Assembly: GCA_019454045.1 (NCBI GenBank)
Contig: SKCR01033663.1
Span: forward strand, 372,001 to 436,000
Length of the DNA stretch: 64,000 nt
Reading direction: 5' to 3'
Source: Zanthoxylum bungeanum
Taxonomy: Eukaryota > Streptophyta > Magnoliopsida > Sapindales > Rutaceae
Part shown: piece after piece, positions 20,441-61,690 of the stretch
Layout: each line of letters starts with the position of its first letter
Numbering within the stretch: the stretch's first letter is position 1
Position numbers and translations under genes: made by a program
Notes under the pieces: model-generated
Seen by the model: the letters and a program-made list of their open reading frames with translations, nothing else
What the model was told of the DNA's origin: nothing
The model's database searches: none

Positions 20441-21509
20441 TCAGGCAAAATATTGCTTCAATTTGTCCACATTGATCGGCTCGGTGAACTCGTTTCCTTC
20501 CAAATCTGACAGTTTCACTGCCCAATTTCCCATGACTTTCTGGACTATGTAGGGTCCTTCCTTGTTGGGTCTGAACTTTCCTCTCGGGTCTGTCGTGGAC
20601 GGCTTTGACTGCTTAAGTACCAGATCACCCTTTCTAATCTTAGTGGGATGCACTTTTTTGTTGAATGCTCGAGCCAACCTCTTCTGGTATAACTGCATAT
20701 GACATAAAGACTTCATTCTCTTTTCATCCAGTAATGTTAACTGTTAAAATCTTCGCGAGGCCCATTCTTGTTCAGGTAACTCTGCTTCTGCTAATACCCG
20801 CATAGACTGTATCTCAACTTCCACTGGCAATACTGCTTCCATCCCGTAGACCAAAGAGTAAGGCGTGACCCCTGTTGATGTTCTCACAGAAGTTCTGTAC
20901 CCCCACAGGGCGTACGGCAGCTTATTGGCCCAATCTTTGTAGTTCTCCGTCATTTTGGCTAACATCTTCTTTATTGTCTTATTGGCTGCCTCGACTGCCC
21001 CATTTGCCTGCGGTCTGTAAGGTGACGACTTGTGATGGCCTATCCCGTACTTTTGTAGTATTTCCTTTATTTCTCCTTGAAACTGGACTCCATTGTCTGT
21101 TACTACGTGATGCGGTATTCCATATCGACATATGAGGTTCCGAGCTATGAACTTTGCCATCTGCTTTGCTGTGACATTACGAAATGACTCGGCTTCCACC
21201 CATTTTGAAAAGTAGTCTATTGCCACTATTATAAAGTGATGTCCATTCGATGCGTGCGGTCGAATTTCTCCGATCATATCAATTCCCCATGTTGAGAAAG
21301 GCCACAGCTCTGACAGCCCGTGCAACTCTATGTGAGGCAAATGGTTCAAGTTACCGTGCGCTTGACAATCATGACAATGTTTTACCAGTTTCGCACAGTC
21401 AGCTTCCATGGTCGACCAATAGAAACCTTGTCTCACTATCTTGCGGGACAAGTTCAATCAGTTCATGTGCGGTCCATATACTCCGGTGTGTACTTCTTTA
21501 TGAAGCGAT
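20441..21509 (-). pseudogene. Tat1 integrase (zinc-finger part, DDE core, C-terminal GPY/F-like part)
   Basis: Integrase inserts retrotransposon cDNA into the host chromosome. The frame 20744-21457 (237 codons) holds the end of the HHCC zinc-binding domain (HCHDCQ, residues 27-32) and the catalytic core with D60 (GIDMIGEI), D121 (VTDNGVQF) and E156 (NGAVEAANK); the 35-residue gap between the second Asp and the Glu is the classic D,D35E spacing. A stop then separates it from the C-terminal part at 20441-20716, which contains GPYIV, the GPY/F-like module. The core itself has no stop and keeps all three acidic residues, unlike the Tat3 copy. The region starts with a 269-bp duplication, so it is not continuous with upstream pol. 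Confidence 0.85.
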
Positions 21510-26048: not shown

Positions 26049-26110
26049 GTGGTGTTTCTAAATTATTTATGTCATTATTTGATATCGAATAAATATATTT
26101 AGGTGAAGTA
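26049..26110 (+). repeat. Right target-site duplication of Tat1 and continuation of the Cop2 LTR
   Basis: GTGGT at 26049-26053 is the right duplication. 26054-26110 (gtttctaaattatttatg...ggtgaagta) matches the Cop1 LTR exactly where Cop2 was broken at 16587. The LTR is cut again at 26111 by Ath1, and its final ~110 bases are not seen. Confidence 0.85.
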
Positions 26111-27264
26111 TGACCGGCGTAAACACACACGTATAACGCAAGCGCATGTATCGTTCAAGTAGTATAAAAATATCGATCACACGATGACTTAATTCCTACT
26201 ATTGTTATTAATTGTTGATACTATTTATTTACAAATATCTAATTGAGGAAGAAGTGAAAGATTGCTTGCATGATTTGGTTGATTGTAGATTTGTTAAATA
26301 AATAAAAAAAGATAAAAAGACAAAAGAAAATACTAAGGAAAATAAAAGACTTAAAGATCTATGGTTGTGAATCTTTCTAATATCTTTAAAAAGATGAAGT
26401 GATTATTTTAAGTTTGTGTAATAAATCAGTTTACTAACCTGGAACACGAATTTATGTGAAAGCATATGTCGATGGTCAGACACAAATACCCAGTTTAATC
26501 CAATTGAACCATATGTCTATGTCAACCAAATTATCTGGATTCATTAAGTTTAAGTTCTAATTATGGCTACCCCCGCCCGACAGGTATATGTCTATCCTGT
26601 AAGGAAATCTATTAAAGGGTTATCTATCCTCAAAGAAGATCGTGGGCTATTAAGTCAAAGGTTAGAACCTAAAATCCCTATGTCTAGTTCATTTTAGATT
26701 TACCACATCAATCTTATTGGTTATCAAACAACAAGAAGCATTTAAGACTTAATAAGTAAACCTTTAAATTACTCAAATTATAAAATAACCTCTTATAAAC
26801 CGGTGATATTAGATTTCATCACAACCTAGAAAACTAACTTAGTTATAACACATAATTAGGACTAGTAAAAAGACATAAAAATTACTTTAAAAGTAAATGA
26901 AGAAAAATAAATAAAATGCTAAGGAAAAATGAATTAACTTCTACTATTTACTATTTAGATATCTCCCATAAAATAATATATAATCTTATGATAATTTTAC
27001 CAACCAGCCATATAGGCGGTAACCTGATTAAGTCAAATTAAGATAAACCAGCCATAAAGGCGGAACAATAATTAAACCAACCGACCAGTATGGCGGTATC
27101 CTCATTAAGTCAGGTTTTAAATAGTTTTTATATTATATTTTAGGGAGATTAATCTAAATAGCAATAGTAAAAGAATTACCTTTTTACCTCAGCATGGAAA
27201 AGTTACCTCCGCATAGTAAAATGGTAAAAGTAAAAATAAAATTACTATTAAAAAAAAAGAATTA
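26111..27264 (-). repeat. Ath1: truncated Athila-type LTR
   Basis: Starts TGACCGGCGTAAACACACAC and follows the sequence order of Ath3 and Ath4 LTRs: 'gcatgtatcg', 'ctacccccgcccgaca', and the 'aggcgg' repeats at about 27000-27110. It stops at about 27264 where Tat2 begins, lacking the part that holds the TATA box and outer end in the other copies. Only the left end is preserved, so no target-site duplication can be shown. Confidence 0.75.
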
Positions 27265-37132: not shown

Positions 37133-38659
37133 AAGCAAGTGGGAGTTTTTTGGAGTTGGTGCTTGAAGCGCAATTCCGAATAATATATTGTACATTATAT
37201 TTTATTATTTATTAATAAACTAATTATATTTTCATTCCAACCTTATTAATGGTAATGTCATTATGCATATTAGTTTGATGTATAAATATGCTGAGAATGA
37301 CATCGACCTTAGGATAGTCATATAGTAATATTAGACACTGGGTGGTCCGACATTAGGATAGTATTACTATTATAAACCATTCTTAAAGTAAATATCCATA
37401 GTCATTGGTTTTGGAATACGGTCGAATCCCTTTAACCTATAAGACTAATACATGCCGTATTTTGGATTTAGAGTTCCAATGGTTTGACCCAATGTACCAT
37501 CAGCAAGGGAAACTCGTATAGACATATTAATATTTATTGGAGTGAATACTGAATCACTCACAAGTGATTCCTAATAGTTGGAAGTACACACCACCGTCAA
37601 TATGAATCTCATCGAGTCGAGTAGCACATGTGATCCTTTGACTACATGATAACATTGATTTTGTGTATGATCATCCATACTTTGATGCCATATATGTCAG
37701 AGACCTTTCATGATCTGACCGCTAGATGTTCTTTGGGTGTGGACCGATGCACTCGTTAATCAAGTGCGTATCAAGATATGATTCATTGGCCCGTATGTGT
37801 ACCATAAAAGGGTTAAGGTATCCATGTAAGTAAGTCACGATTCTTAAGACTTTGGCCAAAGCCGATCACCTAGGGTGGATCGCATATGTCATAAATAGTG
37901 TTCTGACAAGTTATAAAGAATCATGGAGATGTCGACATGAGATGTGCGCCTCAGAAAGTTGACAGTGTAATCTATGATTCTTAAGCACAACTCGGATAGC
38001 CTCAACGGAGGGATTGTTAAACATATGTAACGGCCTCGACCTGTATAGTTCATAAAAGTCGTACGTGTTTTTCGCGAATTCGACGATGGTCAAATTGTGT
38101 ACATATAAGCTAGGTTTATATGACAAACGTGTATAGACTTAGAGAGTCCCATAATATAAAATGTACTCGTTGAGCACTTTGGTAGCCGATAATATTTGAT
38201 AATAAATAATATTTGATATTATAATTATCAACTAAAATAATTAAGTGTTATTGGATAACATTAAATATTTACTTTGACTCAATTCGATTAATTAGATTAA
38301 TCAAAAATCACACAAGGGTTTTGTTGTAATTTCATAAATATCTCTATCATTGGAGGATATTTTGGTAGTTACAAATATGTAATAATAAGTGTATTTGGCT
38401 TGATTCAATTTGATTAAATCAAAGTGGTGGACAAAGGTAATTAGTCATATCTAATTATTCATATTTGGACTATTTGGATTAAGCCCATACAAAGTTTATT
38501 AAAACTTTTATTAATTAAAATTTGCAAAGGTTTTTCTATAAAAGGCAAGCTTGAGCAAGTTTTTAATCAGGCTTCAGAAAGCTTTAAAAAATCAAGAATT
38601 TGAGATATTAGCCTAAGTAAAACAAGTGTTTAAAGAAGCTTTGGAAGTTCTCTAATACA

Positions 38660-38840
38660 CTTCAACAAAGAGAAGAAGATTGGATCTTGGAACCAAGCTT
38701 GCTAGCTTTTTGAATTCTCTACAATATTTCAACAAGGAGAAGAAGATTGGATCTTGGAACCAAACTTGCTAACTTTGGAAGTTCTCTATAATATTTCAAC
38801 AAGAGAAGAAGATTGGATCTTGGGATCAAGCTTGCTAGGT
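38660..38840 (+). repeat. 66-67-bp triplication downstream of the TATA box in LTR A
   Basis: 'agaagaagattggatcttgg' begins at 38671, 38738 and 38804. The truncated sister LTR at 46720-48127 carries the same array near 47570-47755, so the expansion predates the duplication of the LTRs. Confidence 0.85.
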
Positions 38841-39228
38841 AAGTTTGATCTCTTCTCCAAAGCTATGTTTTCATTAGTGAGTTATCATTAGTGAGACATA
38901 TCGTGATGAATTATGTATTGGATACATAATAATATGGCTTGATGTTGAAATTAGGCTAATTAATTGTGTACGGATGTTTTGTAAGTATAAACATAATATG
39001 CTTGTAATTGGGTCAAATATGTTCATGTTGGACATGAAACATAAAATTAGAGTTTGGAACGCTAGAGGAAAGCTTAGAGCTATGACTACTATTCTAGAAT
39101 CACTTGACCATCTTTGAGTGACCTAAAATTATTCATGGGTCACTTCATTATGGCATTCTAATTTGGTTTTGTTTTGATTCAAACTAATGCATATATATAT
39201 ATATATATATACAATAAATGTATGTTTG

Positions 39229-39233
39229 TTATA
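39229..39233. other. Target-site duplication TTATA, left copy (Ath3)
   Basis: TTATA precedes Ath3 here and follows it at 45565-45569. Confidence 0.85.
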
Positions 39234-40038
39234 TGATCGGTGTATGAACACACACGTAACGCAAGCGCATGTATCGCTCAAGTAGTATAAAAATATCGAT
39301 CCCACGATGACTTAATTTCTACTATTGTTATTAATTATTGAAACTATTTATTTACAGGTATCTAATTAAAGGGAGAAGGGAATGATTGCTTGATTGGTTG
39401 GTTGAATATGGATTTGCTAAATAAATAAATAAATAAAAATACAAAATAAATCAAAGGAAATTAATAATAAAGAAAATAAATATCTAGGGTTGAGATTCCA
39501 CACAATATTATTCTAATGATGAATTGATTCTATTATATATGTGTAATAAATCTATTTGCTAACCTGGAACACGAAAATATGCAAAAGCCTCTTCCGATGA
39601 TCAGATGCAAACACCCAAAATAACTCAATTATTCATATGTCTATGTTAACCAAGTTACATGATTTCATTAAGTTCAAGTTTCAATTGTGGCTACCCCCGC
39701 CCGACAAGTAGATGTCTATCCCGGAAGGAAATCTACCTAAGGATCATTTGCCCCAAGGTGAGATCGTAAGCTATAGAATCTAAGACTGAAACCTAAAATC
39801 TCTTCGTCAAGTTCATTTTAAGTTTACCCCATCAATCTTATTAATGGCCAGTTAACAATAAGCATTAAGCTTAAGATTCAATAAACAAACCAAAGTATTA
39901 CCCATAATATAATTAAATCAATTATTAAACTCAAAAATATCGTGTTTCATTCATTCCCTAGAATAAAAAAAATTATGGGGGTTAGGGGATCCACCTTTAA
40001 TATTTCAAATGTAGAAATCTCACTTTATTATAATATAG
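39234..40038 (-). repeat. Ath3 3' LTR, truncated
   Basis: Matches 43766-44570 closely, then stops at 'aatatagaaatt' (40038), where internal sequence begins. About 990 bases of the LTR's upstream (U3) part and the polypurine tract are missing. The outer end with its target duplication is intact. Confidence 0.8.
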
Positions 40039-41140
40039 AAATTTTGCCTCCACCAATTTACAGCGACGATACCCACAAACGCTAATGAAATACACACAAA
40101 AGCAAAAGGACAAAAGAAACAAAAATAAACAAGTTAGTAACTAAACAAGTGAAACTTCTTATCCAAGTTAGTAGTTGTTTTATTTCTTTATAAATTACCA
40201 AATTAGTGAATTCTCCTATTATTTTTACTATTCTCCATATACGCCACCAACAAGGTATTAATCAAATCATTGTGCCCACAATATTATAAGTGTAGTTGAA
40301 AAGAGAGTAATATTTTTGTCCTAAAGTTATATCAAAATTCACATATTTTTAGCAATGGAATTTTTCTTTTTCTTTTTTTCTTTTTTTTTTAAATAACATC
40401 TTTAATCCATGTAGCGAGCTTTGGGTCAGTGACTCCCAAACCAGTTGGTTTTATGGCACTAGGTGTTAAGACACCCATACGGACTTAATTACTCGGATCT
40501 CGGATGTCATTTTTTTTATTAACATCTTCAATCCATATAGCGAGCTTTGATCAATGACCCCAAGCCAGTTGGCTTTAGGGCACTAGGTGTTAAAACACCC
40601 CTACGGACTTAATTACTCGGATCTCAGATTTTTTGTTATTATATACACAATATTTTTTTATTCCATCGCTTTTTTAGATGTTTCCTCCAATTAAACTAGA
40701 GCACTGAATATTACAAACTTTTCACTTGCAACTCATGGCCATATGTTACCATGCATATTGATAATACTTGTCAACTGAGCATATGAAGATCCAATTTAAT
40801 CAGTATTATGGAGAATTCACAAATATAAATAATTCAAAAGGAAATAAACAAAAATTAACTTGTTACGAAATAGGTTGAGATACGTCTCAGGGGTGGAAAT
40901 TCCTTACACGACTATCTCTAACACAATTTCACCTGGTTAGTCAAAAATCTCAAACAGAAAACAAATTTGTTTTTTAAAATTTACACAAAATAATAAAAAA
41001 ACAAAACAAATAAAAACAAGAAAGTCAAATATTCCCTCCCCCAAACCTAATTGAGACATTATCCTCAATGTCTGAAAAAGAAGAAGAATGGTTTAAAAGA
41101 TATCACCTAGTTAGCGTGAATTTGACAATTGCAGCTATAC
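40039..41140 (-). mobile_element. Ath3 3' internal region with a 126-bp duplication
   Basis: No gene seen. 'aacatctt.aatcca' begins at 40395 and 40521, and each is followed by ~115 matching bases ('gcactaggtgttaa', 'cggacttaattactcgga'). I recall this wording from the 3' part of plant Athila-like elements. 'gagacattatcctcaatgtc' (about 41053-41072) is also typical of Athila 3' regions. Confidence 0.55.
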
Positions 41141-41144
41141 AAAA

Positions 41145-41798
41145 TTATCGATTAAGATCTAAATATAATTTACGCTTCTTGCCACGATCATTATCATACC
41201 AGTTCAACTTGGAAACAATGGGGTTGATTTTTGGTTCATAGGCTAAGAGTTGGTCAATTAATTCATCGACTTTTCTCACAGTTAGGAATATGTCTTTTAC
41301 CGGTTTCAAGATGAGCCCAAGTTTGTTAGCATCTGTAAGAAATACAAAAAGAAAATCGAAAAATCCATCCACATTAAATAGTCTAATGGATTTCAGGTGG
41401 ATGTTCAAATTTGCTCATGATGCAACTGTGAATATTTCTTCCAACGTGCCTAGCCCGCCTGGTAAAGCAATGAAAGCGTGAGCGTGATTGATCATTTCAA
41501 TAAGTTTTTCAGACATGTCTAAGACAATGCATTCCTCTGCATTTGAGTCTCTGATGAGGTTTATATGTGCTAATGGTTTTGGAATGATTCCCAAAACATG
41601 GCTGCCACCTTCTTGCACGGCTTTTGAAACACATCCCATTAATCCAAGATTGCCACAGCCATATACTAAGTGCATGTGTCGTTCTGCAATAAGTCTCCCC
41701 AATTCTTTTGCAGCCTCCATAAATTCTTGTTTGGACCCAGAGTTCGATCCACAAAACACACAGATATGAGTAACTCATCGCTTGGAAGTGGTTTCCAT
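41145..41798 (-). pseudogene. LONELY GUY (LOG)-type cytokinin riboside 5'-monophosphate phosphoribohydrolase, captured retrocopy
   Basis: LOG enzymes release active cytokinin bases from cytokinin nucleotides in plant cells. One uninterrupted frame of 217 codons runs from ATG (41796-41798) to the stop at 41145, the usual LOG length, with no intron and no frameshift. Visible family motifs: CVFCGSNSG near the N terminus, LVYGCGNLGLMG (nucleotide-binding; usually YGGGxxGLMG), GSHVLGIIPK, and the signature ALPGGLGTLEEIF, followed by LFNVDGFFD and VDELIDQLLAY; it ends in a basic KKRKLYLDL tail. Two in-frame TGA stops break it: codon 8 (41775-41777) and the codon after TVAS (41415-41417), where the family usually has Trp. 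The DMxxRKAEM motif reads DMSEKLIEM, losing the conserved Arg. Plant LOG genes normally have several introns, so absence points to a spliced mRNA origin. It lies in the same direction as the element's gag. Confidence 0.85.
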
Positions 41799-42334
41799 TT
41801 TTCTCTTATCTGAATTTTATCTGGATGTGTCGAAGAGAAGAATGACGAGCTGAATTTATACATCCTAAAAAAAGGGTGAGTAATACTAGCACTAGCACCT
41901 GCCAAATGACAATTGTTAAAATAAATCATGAAAGTCAAAAAGTATAGATCTTGTCGGCGAAAATAAAGAAAATTACAACAAAAAAGCAAATCAAAGAAAT
42001 TATTTAAGGCAATGGAATTGTGTATGCAATACGCTTCTCGCTTGGTATAAAAATCCATTAAGATGCGTCTCAAGAATTCATTCCTTACTCGGCCATCACT
42101 AATGAATTAAATCTCATCTTTATGATTGCCAAACACCATTCCTCTTGTCTTGTTTTTCCTTAAATGATTTGTTTGTGTTTGTCCCTACAAAAATAACACA
42201 CAAAATTAAAAACTCTACAATATGTATACACAAAATGAAAACATAAATTTCAACAATAATAAAAATTGCATGGGTTGCCTCCCTGGTAGCGCTAAATTTT
42301 TCGTCTTTAGCTAGACGTGTCCGAAGTCCATCTA
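41799..42334 (-). mobile_element. Ath3 segment between gag-like frame and LOG copy
   Basis: At about 42270-42325 the minus strand encodes KDEKFSATREATHA, and its DNA contains 'agcgctaccagggaggcaac', wording I recall from the end of Athila coding regions. A pyrimidine stretch ending 'catttggcag|gtgc' (about 41895-41915, minus) could be a splice acceptor upstream of the LOG ATG. No other coding signal. Confidence 0.45.
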
Positions 42335-43630
42335 TCAAGGAGGCTTCAGCGTGGTTTTGGATGTCCGATTAAAGACAATCCCATGAACGTTTCTTTTGAA
42401 GGGTCTTTTCCAACGGTAAAGTGGCAAAAATAATTTTGTCTCATTCAGTGCTCGTGCCACCTTTTTAAAATTTGTCGCTCTAGTGATTCCTGAAAAGAAA
42501 GAAAGAAAATCAGGAGGTCTCGTATGGTGCTTGACTTTGAATGGAAGTTTCATTCTGTTAAGCTTCTGGGCGGTGTCTTTCATTTGTACTCCCCAATACA
42601 TTGATGTTTTTCCTCAATGCATGAGATCTTCAATATGGTCAGACATTTGCTCCTCCATTTATTTTGCATCTTGCTCCACTTTTTCAACACATATGTACTT
42701 CAGAATTTCATTGTTCAGCTCTTCATCAGTCATCTGTGAAATGCATGCTCCATAAGTGTCATCCTAAGGATGTAAAGATGTGTCTGATTGTAGGCCTTTA
42801 TCCATTGTGGTTGGTATGAACTGCTCGGGTATCTCTTCTTCAAACATCTGCGCAATGCATGCTCCAAAATCTTCATTTTGAGGATGCAGAGTTTTATCCT
42901 CATTTGTTGGTGTAGTTGGTACAGATAGCTCTGCTACCTGTTCCTCCTCAGAGATGTAATCAGCGACCAAAGAATTATCCAGATCAAATTGAAACTCTAT
43001 TGGTTCGGGCTCCAGAACTGATACCTCTAATTCTTGATATTGCTCAGCCTCTTCCCCTGAAAAGGTGTCATCGTGAAATCTTTGGTACTCGAAGGCTTTG
43101 TCAGTGTCATCTGAAAATGCTTCGTAAGGTGTGTAGTTCTGGTTTTCTGTTAATTGTCTCGCTTGATCTGTCATTCTCTGTAAAGTTGCTGCTATTCTCT
43201 AAGAGGTTTCATTTAATTCAGCTTCCCATTTATTGAACTTGTCATCCATCCGTTTGTTGTATGCCTCAAGCATGTCAATCAACCATTCTTCCTCTTATGG
43301 TTCTGGTTCTTGATAGGTTAATGGTGGATAAGATGGAGAATATGGTTTAGTGAAATATGATGGTTCTTCATTGACATACCAAGAATGATTCTGATAATTC
43401 TGCCACCCTGAATTGTAGTTGTACTCGCAATGATTGCTAGGGTGGTTACCATTACATATCTCACATCTCTGAAATCGTTGAGCAAATATTGTGTTATTTC
43501 TCTCTGACATCCATGGATAATTATTGGGCTGGACAACGGGCCTCAGAAAACTGGACTAATGTTCCCTGATTTGGGGTGTATCTACACCTCTTAAAGTTCG
43601 TAATGCTTCCTTCAGCCAATAATGTTCCAT
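42335..43630 (-). pseudogene. Ath3 Gag-like reading frame with CCHC-type knuckle, broken by in-frame stops
   Basis: One frame of 432 codons runs from ATG (43628-43630), about 110 bases after the PBS, to 42335. At least four in-frame stops interrupt it (near 43553, 43295, 43200 and 42764, probably one more near 42605), yet the frame never shifts. CEICNGNHPSNHC (about 43410-43450) is a CX2CX3HX4C knuckle as in Athila Gag. Downstream is a long acidic segment (about 42764-43140) rich in Glu and Asp, then a basic segment (VKHHTRPPDF, RWKRPFKRNV). The usual N-terminal two-thirds of Athila Gag is absent, so this is a shortened or specialised Gag derivative. Function unproven. Confidence 0.6.
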
Positions 43631-43740
43631 TTCAACCACTTGAAAAATAAAAGAAAGAAATAAAAATTACAGATAAAAATAAAGAAAATTAGATACAAGT
43701 AAAATAGATAGCTTCAAAATTAATAACTTAAGAAAAATAA

Positions 43741-43759
43741 GTCCCCGGCAACGGCGTCA
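43741..43759 (-). other. Primer binding site of Ath3 (tRNA-Asp type)
   Basis: The minus strand reads TGACGCCGTTGCCGGGGAC, one change from TGGCGCCGTTGCCGGGGA, the tRNA-Asp-type PBS known for Athila elements. It lies 6 bases inside the LTR edge. Confidence 0.85.
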
Positions 43760-43765
43760 AAAACT

Positions 43766-45564
43766 TGATCGGTGTATAAACACACACATAACGCAAGCGC
43801 ATGTATCGCTCAAGTAGTATAAAATATCGATCCCACAATTACTCAATTTCTACTGTTGTTATTAATTATTGATACTATTTATTTACAGGTATCTAATTAA
43901 AGGGAGAAGGGAATGATTGCTTGATTGGTTGGTTGAATGTGGATTTGCTAAACAAATAAATAAATAAAAATAAAAAATAAATCAAATGAAATTAATAATG
44001 AGGAAAATAAATATCTAGGGTTGAGATTCCACACAATATTAATGATGAATTGATTCTCTTATATATGTATAATAAATCAGTTTGCTAACCTGGAACACGG
44101 AAATATACAAAAGCCTCTTCCGATGGTCAGATGCAAACACCTAAAATAACTCAATTATTCATATGTCTATGTTAACTAAGTTACCTGAATTCATTAAGTT
44201 CAAGTTTCAATTGTGGCTACCCCCGCCCGACAAGTAGATGTCTATCCTGGAAGGAAATCTACCTAAGGATCATTTGCCCCAAGGTGAGATCGTGAGCTAT
44301 TGAATCTAAGGCTGAAACCTAAAATCTCTTCGTCAAGTTCATTTTAAGTTTACCTCATCAATCTTATTAATGGCCAGTTAACAAGAAGCATTAAGCTTAA
44401 GATTCAATAAACAAACCAAAGTATTACCCATAATATAATTAAATCAATTATTAAACTAAAAAATATTGTGTTTCATTACTTCCCTAGAATAAAAAAAAAT
44501 GATGGGGGTTAGGGGATCCACCTTTAATATCTCAAATGTAGAAATCTCACTTTATTATAATATAGAAATTATCAGTATTACCCAATTAAATCAAACCAGC
44601 CATAAAGGCAGTGTTATTATTTGTCCATAAACCAGTCATATAGGCGGTAATCATCTGTCACCTAAAGACCGACCATATAGGCGGTGTCACATTATGTCAA
44701 ATAAATAAAATCAGCCATTAAGGCGGTATCAACTTTAATCCATATTATTAAATTACAATTTTCATGTTATAAATTAAGTGAGATTAATCTACCTTATGAT
44801 ATTAAAGGTTTCACCCTTCCCCCAGCGGAAATTAACTACTAAACATAAAAGAAAGTAAAAACATAAAAACTATTATTACTACTAAAAATAAAAATACATT
44901 ACAAAACTACTAAAAAATCACACAAGATACAATCCTTAATTCTTATTCAAGAAACCAAGGAAAGTATGAAATTTACAAATGAAATGGCTTGGTATTTATA
45001 GGCAAAATTTTTCCTCCCCCAATTTCTCCATCAAACATGGCACCAAATCCTCCACTAAACATGCAAGCATGTTTGGTGGAAGTTTGACAATTGTCATTTT
45101 TTAATTTTTTTTTTTTTTTTTTGAAAATGACTTTAAAAATGACACATAACATACTTTCAGATTTTTCATCAATTTCGATCATGAAATCTTCAGAATTCAA
45201 ATTTCCTATGAACGTCAAAGTTGTATATCTTTGAGTCTTTTTTCATCTAGAACTTGAATCACCCCAATCCGATATCGGAATAAAATATTATGGCCAAAAT
45301 ACAACAATTGCGTAAAGCTGAAATTTCCGAAATTGTACTTTGTTAGAATGCCATTTCAAGTTTCCAACCTCCAAAATCCAAATGTCAAGTCCAGTTTTTA
45401 CCCTTATTTGTTCCAAATTTAGTCTTGATTGATTTCATTAAGTCCCGATTTAATTTTATATGTAAAAAAAATAAAAACACATCAAAACGTTCATAAAACC
45501 CAAGAAGCTAAACAAAATATTAAGTAAAAGATGTGGTAAATATTGATATATTTTCCGCTCATCA
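43766..45564 (-). repeat. Ath3 5' LTR (1.8 kb)
   Basis: TGATCGGTG...CTCATCA on the + strand; on the minus strand it starts TGATGAGCGGAAAATAT, the usual Athila LTR head. A TATA box (GCCTATAAATACC, minus) is at about 44993-45005. Three or four copies of an 'accagccatataggcggt' motif lie at 44590-44725. Confidence 0.85.
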
Positions 45565-46012
45565 TTATATAACATGTGTTGATGTTGGTTTTGATGTTAA
45601 AATTGGACTTTTAAGTGTATTGAAGTGTTTGGAGAAAATTGAAAGTGTTTAGAATTGAATTAAAGGCAAAAATAATATATGCCAATATTGTGCACAGGGT
45701 AGCGTCGTGACACTGAGCTATCAGATCTTCGGGCATCGCGATGCTCACCCATTCGCATCGCGACGTTGAGCATTCCTAGATTGAGCACGCCGACAACTAC
45801 TGCCCATGAGCGCTGAAACTTCATTTTCTCCATTTCAGAGTTTCCGGACTCCAATTTGGTCCATATTTTTTTCCTACAGACTCGTAACGAAATATAATAT
45901 TCTATAAAAAAAAAAATTTAAAAATACACCCATCCTTGATATCCATGGGTTATACCCACTTCCACTATACGAGGCACCAATCCGACCCTAGAGTCCCACA
46001 TCCGCCCCAACA
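45565..46012 (+). repeat. Right target duplication of Ath3 and end of LTR A
   Basis: TTATA at 45565-45569, then the end of the Copia LTR to CCGCCCCAACA at 46012. Three CpG-rich near-palindromes lie at 45702, 45733 and 45755. A minus-strand frame (45660-45854) has no motif. Confidence 0.7.
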
Positions 46013-46719: not shown

Positions 46720-48127
46720 AAAATCCATAATTGTGATCACCTATGGTGGATTGCATATATCAGAAATGGTATTCTGAATAATTATAAAGAATCGTGGACA
46801 TGTCGACATGAGATGTGCTCCTTAGAAACTTTTGTAATCTATGTTTCCTAAGCACAACTCAGATAGCCTACGACGGAGGGATTGTTAAACATATGTGATG
46901 ACCTCGACTTGTATAGTTCAGGAAGGTCGTTCGTATTCTTCGCAAATTCGGATTTGGCCGAATTACATATAAGCTAGGATTATAGGATGAACGTGTCCAG
47001 ACTTAGAGAGTCCAACAATATGAAGTGTACTCGTTGAGCACTTGGGTAGCCATAATATTTGATAATAAATAATATTTGATATTATAATTATCAACTAAAA
47101 TAATTAAGTATTATTGGATAACATTAAATATTTACTTTGACCTAATTGGATTAATCAAAAATCACACAAGGGATTTGTTGTAATTTCATAAATATCTCTA
47201 CCATTGGAGAATATTTTGATAATTATAAAAATGTAAGTATTAGTGTATCTGGCTTGATTTAACTGGATTAAATCAAAGTGATAGACATACAACTAATCCA
47301 TTAATTAAACTTTGTCTTGATTTAATTGGATTAAATCAAAGTGGTAGACAAAAGTAATTAGTCATACCTAATTATACATATTTGGAAAAATTGGATTAAG
47401 CTCACATAAAAGTTTATTAGAACTTTTATTAATTAAAAATTGCATATGTTATGCTATAAAAGGCAAGCTTGAGCAAGGTTTTAATCAAACTTGAGAAAGT
47501 TAAAATAAGTAAGTATTAGAGATATTAGCCTACGTAAAAGAAGTGTTTAGAAAAGCTTTGCAAGTTCTCTACAACACTTCAACAATTAGAAGAAGATTGG
47601 ATTCCTAGAACCAAACTTGCTAGCTTTGGGAATTCTCTAAAATAACAAGGAGAAAAAGATTGGATCTTGGAACCAAGATTGCTAGCTTTGGAAGTTCTCC
47701 ATAATATTTCAACAAGGAGAAGAAGATTGGATCTTGGAATCAAACCTGCTAGGTAAGTTTGATCTTTATCAAAGCCATGTTTTAATTAATGAGTTATCAT
47801 TAGTGAGACATATAGTGATGAATTATGTATTGGATGCATAATAACATAGCTTGATGTTGAAATTAGGCTAATTAATTATTTACGGATGTTTTGAAAGCAT
47901 AAACATAATATGCTTGTAATAAGGTCAAATATATTCATGTTGGACATGGAACATAAAATTAGAGTTTGAAACTCTAGATGAAAGCTTAGAGCTATGGCTA
48001 CTATTCTAGAATGATTTGACCATTTTGAGTGACCTAGAATTATTCCTGAGTCACTTTAATGTAGGATTCTAATTTGGTTTGTGTTTTAATTCAAACTAAT
48101 GCATATATGTATTTAAAATACATATAT
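46720..48127 (+). repeat. Truncated Copia LTR ('LTR B')
   Basis: Matches LTR A from about 37860 to 39225, including TATA box (47454-47463) and the 66-bp triplication (about 47570-47755). It lacks the LTR head, and its right part is interrupted by Tat3 at 48128. The frame at this join carries no gene. Confidence 0.8.
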
Positions 48128-54868: not shown

Positions 54869-56590
54869 ATGAAGTTGGAGAGCCTGCCCCTCGAGGAAAA
54901 TGAGGAAGACCCAACTGTGGGAGATGAAGCATCTGTGGAGGATGAAGATGTTTATCTCTCTGATTTATTTAAATGTATTCCTGCATCTGCTGGCAATAAA
55001 GACAATCATTTTGCTTACTCGTCTGAGTCTCTCCCTTTCAATTTGCACGACTTGAGTATATTTGATATCAGCTCCATAAAAACAAATGCATTGAACCTTG
55101 GTACACCTGAGAGCCCCAGGGAAATTCTAATTGTAAGTGAGGTTACCTCTGAGGAGCGGGAAAAATTAGAAGAAATATTAGCCAAATATGCCAAAGTGTT
55201 TGCTTGGTCCTATGAGGACATGCCTGGAGTAAACAGAAGCATCGCCCAGCATACAATACCAACTTATCCAAATATGAAGCCAGTGAAACAGAAACTTCGA
55301 CGGATGAGACCTGAGTGGGCTGAGAAAGTCAGAGAGGAAGTCAAGAAACAGATAGATGTGGGGTTCTTGGAAGTAGTAAAGTATTATGAGTGGTTGGCAA
55401 ATATTGTGCCGGTGCCGAAGAAAGACGGGAAGGTCAGAATGTGTGTGGATTATAGAGATCTTAACAAGGCTTGCCCGAAAGATGATTTTCCTCTACCTCA
55501 TATAGATGTGCTAGTTGAGAGTGCCGCTTTATCTGCCATGTATTCATTTGTAGATGGGTTTTCAGGATACAATCAGGTTCTCATGGCTGAGGAAGACAAA
55601 CACAAGACTGCCTTTATCACCGAGTGGGGCACATATTGTTACAAGGTAATGCCGTTTGGGCTCAAAAATGCAGGAGCTACTTATCAGCGGATGGCCACTA
55701 CACTATTCCACGACTTGATGCACAAAGAGATTGAAGTATATGTGGATGATATGATAGTGAAATCAGAGACAAGAATTGGGCATATATGAGCACTGGAGAA
55801 GTTCCTTCAGAGAGCTGACAAATACAACTTGCGGCTGAATCCCAAGAAATGTGTGTTTGGGGTAACATCAGGAAAGTTGCTGGGACATACAGTGGGAATG
55901 GGAGGAATAGAGGTAGACTTTGAGAAGATCAAAGAAATCACAGAGATACCAGCACCGAAGACTGAGAAGGAAGTCAGAGCATTCCTCGGGAAAATTCAGT
56001 ACATCAGTCGGTTCATCGCCAAGTTGACATAAGTATGTGAGCCTATCTTCAAACTACTGAAAAGACCAGCCAGTGAAATGGAATAAGCAATGTCAAGCAG
56101 CCTTCGACAAAATCAGAGAATACTTGGTAAAGCCTCCTGTATTGAAACCTCCGAGACTGGGCAGACCTTTGATATTGTATTTAGCCATAGAATCAGAAGC
56201 ACTGGGGGCAATGATAGTACAGGTAGAAGAGACGAGAATAGAGCATGCGGTCTACTATCTCAGTAAGAAGATGCTTCCGTACGAAGCCCGCTATAAAGAA
56301 GTATAGAAGATCTGTTTGGCAGTGGTATGGGCTTCCAGAAAACTGCGGCATTACTTCCAGTCTTACAAGATCCAGGTGGTGGCCAAAGAAAATCCCTTTA
56401 AGTATCTACATTCAGTGCCTTCGCTAGTGGGGAAGTTGGGAAGATGGTTAGTGTTGCTGACAGAGTTTGACATTGAGTATCTCAACTCCAAAGTAATCAA
56501 AGGGCGAGCCGTAGCAGAGTTCCTGGCATTGCAACCTATTGAAGGGGATCAGTACAAGTTTTTTTCCCAGATGAAGAGATCCAAGCAATA
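54869..56590 (+). pseudogene. Tat3 reverse transcriptase and first RNase H
   Basis: Copies element RNA into DNA. Reverse transcriptase lies at about 55330-56030: FLEVVKYYEWLANIVPVPKK, MCVDYRDLNKACPKDDFPLP, FVDGFSGYNQ, MPFGLKNAGATYQR and the catalytic YVDD at 55739-55750. Stops follow at 55787 (TGA after GHI) and 56030 (TAA after KLT), and a frameshift near 56065. The first RNase H runs from about 56073 to 56590 (LILYLAIESEALGAMIVQ; AVYYLSKKML; LAVVWASRKLRHYF), with a stop at 56304. Catalytic residues of reverse transcriptase are preserved; the reading frame is not. Confidence 0.9.
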
Positions 56591-57262
56591 ACAATTCAAG
56601 GATGGAAGATGTATTTCGACGGCACAGTGAATTGCAAAGAAGCCGGAATTGGGATCGTGATAGTGACCCCCGATGGAGAAACCTTGCATATGGCCAAGAG
56701 GTTGACGTTCGGAGTAACTAACAACATGGCCGAGTATGAAGCATGTGCTTTTGGATTGACTGCATTGATAGCCTTGAAAGCTGAGAGCGTGGAGGTCTAC
56801 GGAGATTCGATGTTGGTATTCTGACAGATGCAGGGAGAATGGGAATTGAAGGAAGAACGGTTGAAACCTTACCTTTTTCACCTCAGAAAGTTGGCACAGG
56901 CTATCCCCGATTGTAAGTTTCAGCACTTGCCGCGAGAAGAGAATCAGATGGCAGACGCATTAGCTACACTTGCAGCGACTTGGGAAAATCCAGAGAAGTT
57001 AGTGATGAAACTACTGGTACTGACAACAGCAAGCAGACCCGTTTATGAGATAGAAAGAGTTCTGGAAGTGGGGGTCGACGACGGAAAACCTTGGTACCAT
57101 GATATTCAGCAATACCTAGAACTCAGAGAACTCCCAGAAGAAGCAAGCAGAAAAGACAGGATAGCTATTCAGAAGTTAGCTTCTCAGTATGTGGTTTTGA
57201 AAGGAGAATTGTACAAGAGACAGGCAAATGGCGTTCAGCTGAAGTGTTTGAGAAAAGAATAA
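56591..57262 (+). pseudogene. Tat3 second (archaeal-type) RNase H and linker
   Basis: Lineage-specific extra RNase H placed before integrase. YFDGTVNCKEAGIGIVI (from 56609) has the first catalytic Asp, NMAEYEACAFGL (about 56724-56760) the Glu, and YGDSMLV (about 56800-56820) the second Asp. A TGA at 56822-56824 (a CGA Arg codon in the usual motif) stops the frame. It resumes at 56828 with QMQGEWELKEE and LPREENQMADALATL, the C-terminal helix with its catalytic Asp. TAA ends the frame at 57260-57262. Confidence 0.85.
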
Positions 57263-58337
57263 GCTCATAAGACAATGGAAGAAGTACATGCCGGGGTATA
57301 TATACCGCACATGAATGGGTTGAACTTGTCTCGCAAGATTGTAAGACAAGGCTTCTACTGGTTGACCATGGAGACAGACAGTGCAAAGCTGGTAAAACAT
57401 TGTCATGAGTGTCAAGCACACGGTAATTTGAACCATCTGCCTCATACAGAGTTACACGGGCTATCAGAGCCATGGCCTTTCTCAGCATAGGGAATTCATT
57501 TGATTGGGGAGATTCGACCGAATGCATCGAATGGACATCGTTTCATAGTAGTGGCAGTGGACTACTTGTCAAAATGGGTGGAAGTCGAGTCATTTCGTAA
57601 CATCACAACAAAGCAGATAGTAAAGTTCATAGCTCGGAACATCATATGTCGATATGGGATGTCGCATCATGTAGTGACAGATAACGGAGTTCAGTTTCAA
57701 GGGGAAACGAAGGCAATGCTACAGAGATATGGGATAGGACATCACAAGTCGTCACCTTACCAGCCGCAGGCAAATGGGGCAGTCGAGGCAGCCAATAAGA
57801 CAGTAAAGAAGATATTAGCCAAGATGACAGAGAACTGCAAAGATTGGGCTAACAAGCTACTGTACGCCCTGTGGGGGGTACAGAATATCTATGAGAACAA
57901 CAACAGGAGCCATGCCTTACTCTTTAGTCTATAGAATGGAAGCAGTACTACCCGTGGAAGTTGGGATACAGTCTTTGAGGGTTCTAGCAGAAGCAGATTT
58001 GCCTGAACAGGAATGTGCCTCCCAGCGATTTGAACAATTAGCACTGCTAGATGAGAAGAGAATGAAGTCCTTACATCACATGTAGATATATCAGAAAAGG
58101 CTGGCCCAAGCATTCAACAAGAAGGTGCGCCCTACTAAGATCAGAAAGAGTGACTTGGTACTTAAGCAGTCAAAGCCGTCGACGACAGATCCGGGAGGAA
58201 AGTTCAGACCTAACTGGGAAGGACCTTACATAGTGCATAAAGTAATGGGAAATGAGGGAGTGAGACTGTCAGATTTGGAAGGGAACGAGTTCACCGAGCT
58301 GATCAACGTGGACAGATTGAAACAGTACTTCGCTTGA
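57263..58337 (+). pseudogene. Tat3 integrase
   Basis: Zinc-finger part at 57275-57490 (KIVRQGFYW, HCHECQAHGN), ending in TAG at 57488-57490. The DDE core at 57491-57934 has VTDNGVQF and NGAVEAANK, but the first catalytic position reads His (GIHLIGEI, codon 57497-57499) where Tat1 has Asp. A frameshift near 57890 leads into 57891-58085, then TAG at 58083, then the C-terminal part 58125-58337 with GPYIV and the terminal INVDRLKQYF. It would be non-functional even without the stops, because of the lost Asp. Confidence 0.88.
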
Positions 58338-59569: not shown

Positions 59570-61690
59570 TGACCGGCGTAAACACACACGTATAACGCAA
59601 GCGTACGTATCGTTCAAGTAGTATAAAAAGTATCGATCCCACGAGGACTTAAAACCTTATCTATTAATTTTTATGAGGTCAAATGATTACTAGTATCTAA
59701 CAGGTTTTTTTTTATTGATTTGAAATGGCGACGATTCTAAATTTAAAGACAAGTAAATAAAATTGTTCGAAAATAGATTTTAAGAAAATTCAATATTAAA
59801 AACTATCTAGGGTTGTGATTTATTCCAATATTATTTAAAGATGAAGTGGTTATCTTATAGTTGGGTAAAATATTGATTTATTAACCTGGAACACTAAATT
59901 ATGTAAAAGCCTCTTCCGATGGTCAATTACAAATACCTAGTATAATCCAATTGAACCATATGTCGTCTATGTCAACCAAATTACCTAGATTCATTAAGAT
60001 TAAGTTCCAATTATGGCTACCCCCGCCCGACAGGTATATTCCTATCCTCTAAGGAAATCTATTAAAGGGTTATCTATCCTCAAGGAAGATCGTGGGCTAT
60101 TGAGTCTAAGGTCTTAAACTTAAAATCCCTATGTCTAGTTCATTTTAAGTTTACCTAATCAATTTAATTAATGGCCAGTTAATTAAAGAGCATTAAGATT
60201 AAGACTCAATAAATAAATCTTTATATTACCCAAATTATAATCTAACCCTTATAAACCGTGATATTGAAATTCATCACAACCCTAGATAACTAACTTAGTT
60301 ATGACACATAGCTAGGGCTAATGAAAACTTAAAAGTAAAAGCCATAAGTAACAGTGCTGAAAAGTAATTACAGTAAAGTAAAAGCTTAAAAGTAAAATAA
60401 AATAAAATGCTAAGGTCAAAGGAATTATTTCTACTACTACTTATTTAGATATCTCCCAGTAAAATAATATATAAACTTGTGATTATTACCAACCAGCCAT
60501 ATAGGCGGTAACCTGATTAAGTCAATTTAAGTCCAACCAGCCATAAAGGCGGAACCAAAATAACCAGCCATAAAGGCGGAACCAAAATAACCAGCCATAA
60601 AGGCGGAACCAAAATAACCAGCCATAAAGGCGGAAAAGGAATTTTATTACCGACCGACCAATCTGGCGGTATCTTTGCTTAGTCAGGTTTAACCAGTTTA
60701 AATTAAATAACCAACCGACCAATATAGCGGTATTCCTTTTTAAGTCAAATTTTAAATAGTAAATATATTATTTTTAAGGGAGATTAATCTAAATAGTAAT
60801 AGTAAAAGAATTACCTTTCACCCTAGTATAAGGAAGTTACCTCCTCATAGTGAATAGTAAAAACTGTAAAATAAAGAAAGTAAAAATTAAATTACTGTTA
60901 TTACAAAACGTAATTAAAATTATTTACAAAACTAAAAACTAAAAATAAAAAAAAAACTAAAAAAACTAAAGACTCTAGAGAGAGAAACTATCTCTTTAGA
61001 AAGAATTGAAGAGAGAGGAAGGTACAACAAATTCTGAAATCTCGAGCTCAATTTATAGGCGCGGATAGGGGTCCAGCGTCGCGACGCTAAAGGGTTCAGC
61101 GTCGCGACGCCAGCTACAGTGACACGTGTCACTTGCTGATTCACCGGCTCAGATTCTTATCCGATGACGTGGCACTGTTCATGACGTCATTGCTTACGTC
61201 ACGCTGAGGGCGATTGTCGGCAGTGTTAGATCGCGACACGTGGCACCGGCGCACATTAGCAAGTCCGTTGAGATGTCAACACGTGGCACGGCGCACGATA
61301 GCATAGATGATGATTGTCGGCATCGTAGGATGATGACACATGGCAGGCGCAAGTTAGCAAATCTTCTGTGATGGTGACACGTGGCACGACGCACGTTAGC
61401 AAAGTCAACTTTTCAGATTCTGACCCGTTGATCCGGCGCATTATAGCAGCACTTGGCTCACGTTAGGCGTCGCGACGCTGAAGCTTGGTGCGTCGCGATG
61501 CGCAAAAGACCAAAATATCCCTGCTGACGCATTTTTGTCCGGTTTTGCCTCAAATTGCCTCCAGTACTGTCCAAACTTTATTTATCTGCAAAATAACACA
61601 AAATACATCAAAATATTCACAAAACTCAAGAAACTATACAAAATATTAGGTCAAATGAGTGAGAAATAGTGATATAAATACCACTCATCA
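59570..61690 (-). mobile_element. Ath4: solo Athila-type LTR inside the Tat3 3' UTR
   Basis: Starts TGACCGGCGTAAACAC, ends CACTCATCA (TG...CA), 2.1 kb, flanked by ACAAG at 59565-59569 and 61691-61695. No internal region or second LTR, so it is a solo LTR left by recombination between two LTRs. TATA box (GCCTATAAAT, minus) at about 61051-61060. It contains the 'aggcgg' array (60490-60740) and four CpG-rich palindromes (61076, 61099, 61467, 61490). Confidence 0.9.
60490..60740 (-). repeat. 'Aggcgg' repeat array of Athila-type LTRs, expanded in Ath4
   Basis: 'ccagccataaaggcgg' recurs; between about 60536 and 60640 four near-perfect 27-bp units (with 'aaccaaaataa') lie head to tail. Looser copies occur in Ath1 (27000-27110) and Ath3 (44590-44725). 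Confidence 0.85.

Follow-up and report, generated by a model that had tools for sequence, protein, structure and literature searches.

The DNA considered here (the window) is a stretch of 64,000 nucleotides from Zanthoxylum bungeanum, corresponding to positions 372,001 to 436,000 of the forward strand of contig SKCR01033663.1 (assembly GCA_019454045.1). It contains, inside a long terminal repeat (LTR) retrotransposon and in sense orientation to it, a frame of the LOG type, the family of enzymes that release active cytokinins. The LOG copy in the window is a genuine feature and is itself dead. It belongs to the first of five subfamilies of LOG-bearing elements, named a to e, which share the flanks of the gene, include many intact frames, have exchanged LOG between lineages and, as judged from substitution patterns, keep the protein under purifying selection. 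We read the window copy as a decayed member of a pol-less element family from a Ty3/gypsy lineage that has long carried an intron-free LOG behind pol, a reading to which we give a probability of about 0.77.

The LOG frame and its element

The LOG frame lies on the minus strand, contains no insertion or deletion and is broken only by two in-frame TGA codons (41775-41777 and 41415-41417). Both of its open pieces match Arabidopsis At2g37210 (PDB 2a33; E 8.5e-33 and 7.9e-6), and when read through the TGA codons it is recognized by Pfam Lysine_decarbox (2.6e-29) and NCBIfam TIGR00730 (1.7e-43). An intact copy aligns with 2a33 over residues 2-201 at E 1.7e-60 and reaches 1.5e-36 in Pfam. The PGGxGTxxE motif is present in the window copy and in all 12 copies examined from subfamilies b to e; among 25 frames of subfamily a, it reads PGGLGTLEE in 11 and is altered in the rest. 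The plus strand of the same stretch is stop-rich and was rejected as coding. Because the frame runs gap-free over 654 bp and has sister copies, it is not a product of chance. An initial annotation, made from the letters alone, had described a full-length, intron-free LOG-type frame in sense within an LTR element, with start and stop in place and two TGA codons as the only defects, and the protein matches and the TTATA duplication flanking the element confirm this description.

The same annotation had reported both LTR ends, a target-site duplication, a primer-binding site (PBS) and a Gag-like frame. The LTR parts at 39234-40043 and 43766-44570 are indeed 94.7% identical over 811 bases, but the U3 half of the 3' LTR is missing. 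The 5' LTR end of the element is TGATGAGCGG, as in the sister copies, and the duplication and the PBS-like sequence beside this LTR, TGACGCCGTTGCCGGGGA, were recovered as described; several sisters have TGGCGCCGTTGCCGGGGA instead, and the PBS would match tRNA-Asp. The gag assignment holds less well. The region yields zero Pfam matches up to E 1, tblastn does not link it to the gag frames of two relatives, and its sole support consists of a Cys/His string, recognized by eye, and a likeness to those frames over 13 residues alone (8/13, E 0.006; 7/13, E 0.015). The window copy has no pol.

The LOG element lies between two direct repeats (37864-39203 and 46735-48115; 85-88% alike) that resemble the LTRs of an outer element, within which it would have landed. 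Another copy, on contig C20187, has a stretch similar to these outer repeats alongside; it is about 95% like the window copy and shares its 3' LTR deletion and a similar flank, so that the two are probably a single duplicated locus.

Sister copies and further subfamilies

Copies were sought in the assembly of 3,956,113,105 bases, and the copy lists consist of the best-scoring matches ranked by LOG likeness. A DNA search with the LOG stretch gave 7443 first-look candidates, the best 40 of which all match at 91-100% over at least 647 bases; 8 of these 40 subfamily a frames pass the intactness tests and 32 fail. Ten sisters were read with long flanks, and every one carries LTR sequence, the gag-like region, the pre-LOG region, LOG and the post-LOG region, with LOG at the same place. 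In four of the ten, foreign sequence breaks up the interval that runs from the gag-like region to LOG, and LTRs are interrupted in others. The pol of a relative finds no match between the gag-like region and LOG in these sisters, apart from one of 41 residues within an insertion in C29595, in agreement with the initial description of a pol-less element. Target-site duplications of their own are clear in two of the ten (CAGTA in C31134, AATCT in C26120), and the sister LTR pairs that align over more than 1 kb are 87.1, 90.9, 91.2, 92.2 and 97.2% alike. Since the ten sisters have common borders, we reject the idea that LOG arrived afterwards as an independent retrocopy flanked by a target duplication of its own. 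The number of copies in the genome is large: 20 stretches (about 180 kb) contained two LOG copies beyond those sought. One locus, L010 (G000:C20187:216000-225999), has a subfamily b LOG element nested in the 3' LTR of an element of the window's family.

A search with a Populus LOGL10 protein (P0041) extended the family. The best 150 of 66,459 first-look candidates are all uninterrupted matches at 55-59% identity, and 143 of them are free of internal stops; together with the 8 intact frames in the window's own family, they answer the early supposition that sister copies might keep the frame open. Twelve copies found in this way were read and sorted by protein and flanks into subfamilies b (5), c (3), d (3) and e (1), and all twelve have open frames. 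Upstream of LOG, all 12 match the window element; downstream of it, 11 do, the exception being L064. LOG is an open reading frame (ORF) common to the five subfamilies distinguished here. Proteins from public searches are 97% identical to subfamily d (P0001), 95% to c (P0002) and 89% and 88% to b (P0005 and P0009), which shows these element genes to be present in other records too. A search of viral contigs with P0001 gave 67 pattern stretches and zero relatives.

Pol and the lineage of the elements

For four copies, 6 kb upstream of LOG were read. The sequence of L071 (subfamily d), which directly precedes the intact LOG of L058, encodes a gag of 484 amino acids (Pfam 1.3e-20), a protease-region frame without a Pfam match, and a frame of 906 amino acids with RVT_1 (3.6e-30), RNase H, H2C2 and rve (4.5e-16) domains, followed by an ORF of 183 amino acids and then LOG. 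This element is likely autonomous, its 5' LTR falling beyond the stretch read. The arrangement recurs in a further element, L015, where pol is followed by the small ORF and then by a partial LOG. From these two it follows that LOG sits after pol in sense orientation, and the initial view of LOG as an unusual one-off cargo, captured by the window element, gives way to that of a gene common to five subfamilies and found behind pol at two sites. L070 and L072, both of subfamily c, have LTR matches, gag, protease and an integrase end, without reverse transcriptase, followed by LOG; L073 (subfamily e) has no long gag-pol frame and retains a remnant of the small ORF.

The Ty3/gypsy order of reverse transcriptase, RNase H and integrase, together with gag, is thus found in the LOG-bearing relative L071, while the window copy has no pol and a weak gag-like region. 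The 906-residue frame contains one RNase H region and matches no chromodomain, features that agree with the Athila branch of the OTA group outlined in PMC6317226. As judged by its domains, the LOG-bearing lineage would accordingly be a non-chromovirus Ty3/gypsy lineage most like Athila. Members of the Athila clade lack a second RNase H domain and use a primer other than tRNA-Met. The simplest view of the window's family is that its lack of pol is derived.

The small ORF between pol and LOG resembles the nucleic-acid-binding protein (NABP) of carlaviruses; in L071 it matches Carla_C4 at 2e-5, above the cut-off of that family, and Viral_NABP at 1.2e-4, just below the one set for this second family. 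A protein search returned 383 relatives, and among the 120 listed, the named ones come from Populus, Xanthoceras, Acer, Rhamnella and Orobanche. Among the papers listed, none concerns such an ORF, as judged by title and abstract.

Table 1. Features of the LOG-bearing element in the window and of the small ORF in its relatives
Feature	Position	Strand	Basis or remark
Entire inserted LTR element, 6331 bp	39234..45564	-	LTR alignment, ends, duplication, sister copies
5' LTR	43766..45564	-	LTR alignment, sister copies
3' LTR remnant, U5 side only, U3 half missing	39234..40043	-	LTR alignment, sister copies
Target-site duplication TTATA	45565..45569	.	At element end
Target-site duplication TTATA	39229..39233	.	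At element end
PBS-like sequence	43742..43759	-	Adjoins 5' LTR
Gag-like region, open pieces 43295-43555 and 42764-43198	42764..43555	-	Gag assignment weak
Region between gag-like region and LOG	41799..42763	-	Includes LOG leader common to other subfamilies
LOG (cytokinin riboside 5'-monophosphate phosphoribohydrolase-like) frame	41145..41798	-	ATG...TAA, 217 codons + TAA, intron-free
Region between LOG and 3' LTR	40044..41144	-	Common to sister copies
Small ORF between pol and LOG, 170-183 amino acids	L071:5163-5711
Small ORF	L072:5157-5666
Small ORF	L015:691-1236	-
Small ORF, remnant	L073:331-486	-

Elsewhere in the window, other gypsy elements have left remnants of pol at 20447-21493 (minus strand) and 55241-57901 (plus strand), which are 28-34% like that of L071, and two stretches (26082-26783 and 59570-60241) are 72-77% like the LTR of the LOG element. 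The latter two may belong to LOG-less relatives; no second LOG was found in the 64-kb window.

Selection on the LOG protein

Changes were counted over the 40 copies of subfamily a, for which the site counts predict a replacing-to-silent ratio of 3.57. Changes private to one copy number 154 replacing to 49 silent, those in two copies 71 to 23, those in three or four copies 48 to 26 and those in at least five copies 35 to 36, so that the ratio falls from 3.14 in the private class to 0.97 in the most widely shared one (Fisher p 5e-5). As private changes stand near the neutral ratio and shared ones are poor in replacements, single copies decay freely while the lineages that kept copying were held.

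Ratios of nonsynonymous to synonymous divergence (dN/dS), calculated by the Nei-Gojobori method as medians over 20 intact frames, point in the same direction. Between subfamilies they are 0.13 (a-b), 0.16 (a-c), 0.17 (a-d), 0.24 (a-e), 0.14 (b-c), 0.10 (b-d), 0.11 (b-e), 0.18 (c-d), 0.18 (c-e) and 0.19 (d-e), which places nine of ten pairs at 0.10-0.19, with a-e as the outlier. Within subfamilies b, c and d they are 0.16, 0.10 and 0.13. For comparison, dN/dS is 0.27 for gag-protease between two c copies and 0.24 for the small ORF when d is set against c. A subfamily b copy found by its neighbourhood and not by LOG likeness, one of two such copies, gives 0.20-0.31 against its subfamily. In Bs1-like gene-capturing LTR elements, the captured gene evolves without constraint; by both dN/dS and the ratio among shared changes, LOG departs from this pattern. 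Taken together, the substitution data show a protein under purifying selection.

Catalytic residues

In a bacterial LOG, Arg99 and Glu122 have been proposed as catalytic (PMC4979012), and they align with positions 98 and 121 of the element LOG. The Glu is kept in all 25 gap-free frames of subfamily a, while the Arg is replaced there by Gln in 21, Lys in 2, Glu in 1 and a stop in 1. The three copies of subfamily c have Gln, His and Gln at this position, and the nine copies of b, d and e all have Arg. That subfamily c should be constrained (dN/dS 0.10) in spite of the lost Arg is the oddest fact of the analysis, and it concerns three copies.

Exchange of LOG between lineages

The gene and its surroundings do not always tell the same history. 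Over 18 intervals of 100 bases, the last of which ends about 160 bases upstream of LOG, the subfamily b copy beside C20187 is 81-96% like a subfamily a copy in 16 and 57 and 67% like it in two; the likeness is 66-82% within LOG and 79-84% downstream. L064 (c) and L066 (b) are 91% alike upstream, 71% in LOG and 61% downstream. Altogether, 17 of the 120 pairs among 16 copies have a flank at least 83% alike and a LOG at most 75% alike, and from this disagreement it follows that LOG and flanks have recombined between element lineages.

Origin and alternative explanations

A tree of 102 rows was made from 8 frames of this genome and 94 proteins, which remained of 120 after P0018 and 25 short sequences had been dropped. 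It places the window's family in a clade of 27 rows (support 100/99), apart from 75 rows that include all 8 named plant proteins; many of the remaining rows on this side derive from short contigs, and these may be element genes of other plants. Most LOG genes of peanut have seven exons and six introns (PMC13257298), so an intron-free element LOG fits a spliced mRNA as its source. The search for a host parent gene with an 84-residue piece of P0041 gave 45,842 candidates, the best 150 of which are all uninterrupted over at least residues 4-84, with no split exons. With no parent found, template switching as the route of uptake stays conjectural. On the reading that we prefer, a pol-bearing element would have acquired a spliced LOG mRNA in a single, ancient event, and LOG would there occupy the post-pol place in which related elements hold extra ORFs, and the pol-less derivatives would have moved in trans.

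Several observations weigh against this reading of an old and constrained element gene. In the window's own family, 32 of 40 LOG frames are broken, and the intact ones differ from one another at a dN/dS of 0.38. Ranking by LOG likeness and a dN/dS sample of intact frames only favour conservation, as does the best-scoring P0041 list, which favours intact frames. Synonymous divergence is nearly saturated in several pairs, and, given the exchange between lineages, the low values between subfamilies were perhaps partly earned in other carriers. Among six control frames from the flanks, the ratio also falls from private to shared changes in four, once with p 0.03 (3.69 to 2.04; the other five of the six, all with p at least 0.10, being 4.00 to 2.48, 3.24 to 2.77, 3.00 to 3.05, 3.50 to 6.45 and 5.18 to 2.90), though none falls as far as LOG. 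The host parent gene was not found in the searches made, and subfamilies a and c, having lost the proposed catalytic Arg, are less likely to act by simply releasing cytokinin.

A recent, single capture, in which a spliced LOG mRNA entered this element or its close family by template switching and has since been a passenger without benefit, would account for an intron-free gene in a broken, pol-less copy; five subfamilies with related flanks, intact frames and protein constraint make it highly improbable. Repeated, independent captures of host LOGL10-type mRNAs by related elements, with the low dN/dS earned in host genes, would explain why LOG subfamilies differ by a dS of up to 1.5 where some flanks are 83-91% alike. 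This too we consider unlikely, because the flanks of LOG match those of the window element in nearly all copies read from subfamilies b to e, constraint is visible within b (0.16) and within c (0.10), changes shared among copies of the window's family include comparatively few replacements, and none of the 8 named plant proteins falls into the 27-row clade that holds this family. Retention of some copies by the plant as LOG genes of its own would agree with the many intact frames, but private changes near the no-selection ratio (3.14 against 3.57), with the shared ones well away from it, leave such a host benefit very little probability.

What LOG does for the elements is a separate question, on which the answers are tentative. 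The protein, made from element RNA, might help the element by releasing active cytokinin or through some other nucleotide-binding act; the benefit would then act in element-expressing cells and favour dividing or meristem cells, which pass on new copies. It may instead be retained as a nucleotide-binding protein without catalysis, serving for instance element RNA or particles, rather than as a cytokinin enzyme. This is a possibility of some standing, since the Arg is lost from all 25 subfamily a frames compared and from all three of c, the Glu persists in a, constraint persists in c, and alanine at active-site residues of the bacterial enzyme, Arg99 being named among them and S19A excepted, nearly abolishes activity (PMC4979012); the Arg retained in 9 of 9 copies of b, d and e argues the other way. 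It may also be, though it is less likely than not, that LOG and the viral-NABP-like ORF form a host-manipulation module that spreads as a cassette between element families and confers an advantage in dividing cells.

Comparison with known systems

The presence of LOG-family domains in gypsy elements is already known. A YgdH (LOG-family) domain has been reported in Ty3/gypsy consensus sequences of Citrus sinensis and C. clementina and, without the n5 filter, of Populus trichocarpa (PMC9289625, where Steinbauerova et al. 2011 is cited for the domain). Among the papers listed from the open-licence PMC library, no other one on LOG or YgdH in retrotransposons was found, and in the text available of PMC7264820 the words LOG, YgdH, cytokinin and lysine decarboxylase are absent. 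The Citrus and Populus elements likewise hold a LOG-family domain within plant gypsy elements, but the account of them gives its presence alone, whereas the Zanthoxylum elements add position, orientation, intact frames, selection, subfamilies, exchange, a pol-less family and Arg loss. In the literature covered, the anatomy, constraint, exchange and Arg loss described here were not met.

Extra ORFs are common in plant LTR elements, and whether they are functional is an open question (PMC6317226). The element LOG is an extra ORF with a well-studied cellular homologue, protein constraint, variants with and without the Arg, and carriers with and without pol, and it makes testable whether an extra ORF serves its element and through which activity. 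It is also a warning that counts of plant LOG genes may include element genes. The extra ORFs of OTA elements likewise lie downstream of pol in non-chromovirus gypsy elements (PMC6317226); with its 217 codons, LOG falls short of the minimum of 250 codons applied to the extra ORFs in that survey. Another example of a host-type enzyme fixed as an extra ORF is the AlkB-type m6A demethylase of orchid gypsy elements (PMC9289625), a different enzyme with in vitro activity, where the LOG described here is known from its sequence. Compared with the plant enzymes LOG3 (At2g37210, PDB 2a33) and LOG8 (At5g11950, 1ydh), named as in PMC4979012, the element LOG has a similar length, the PGGxGTxxE motif and, in an intact copy, the strong match given above (1.7e-60), but it is intron-free, present in many copies and borne by elements, and in two subfamilies it has lost the proposed catalytic Arg.
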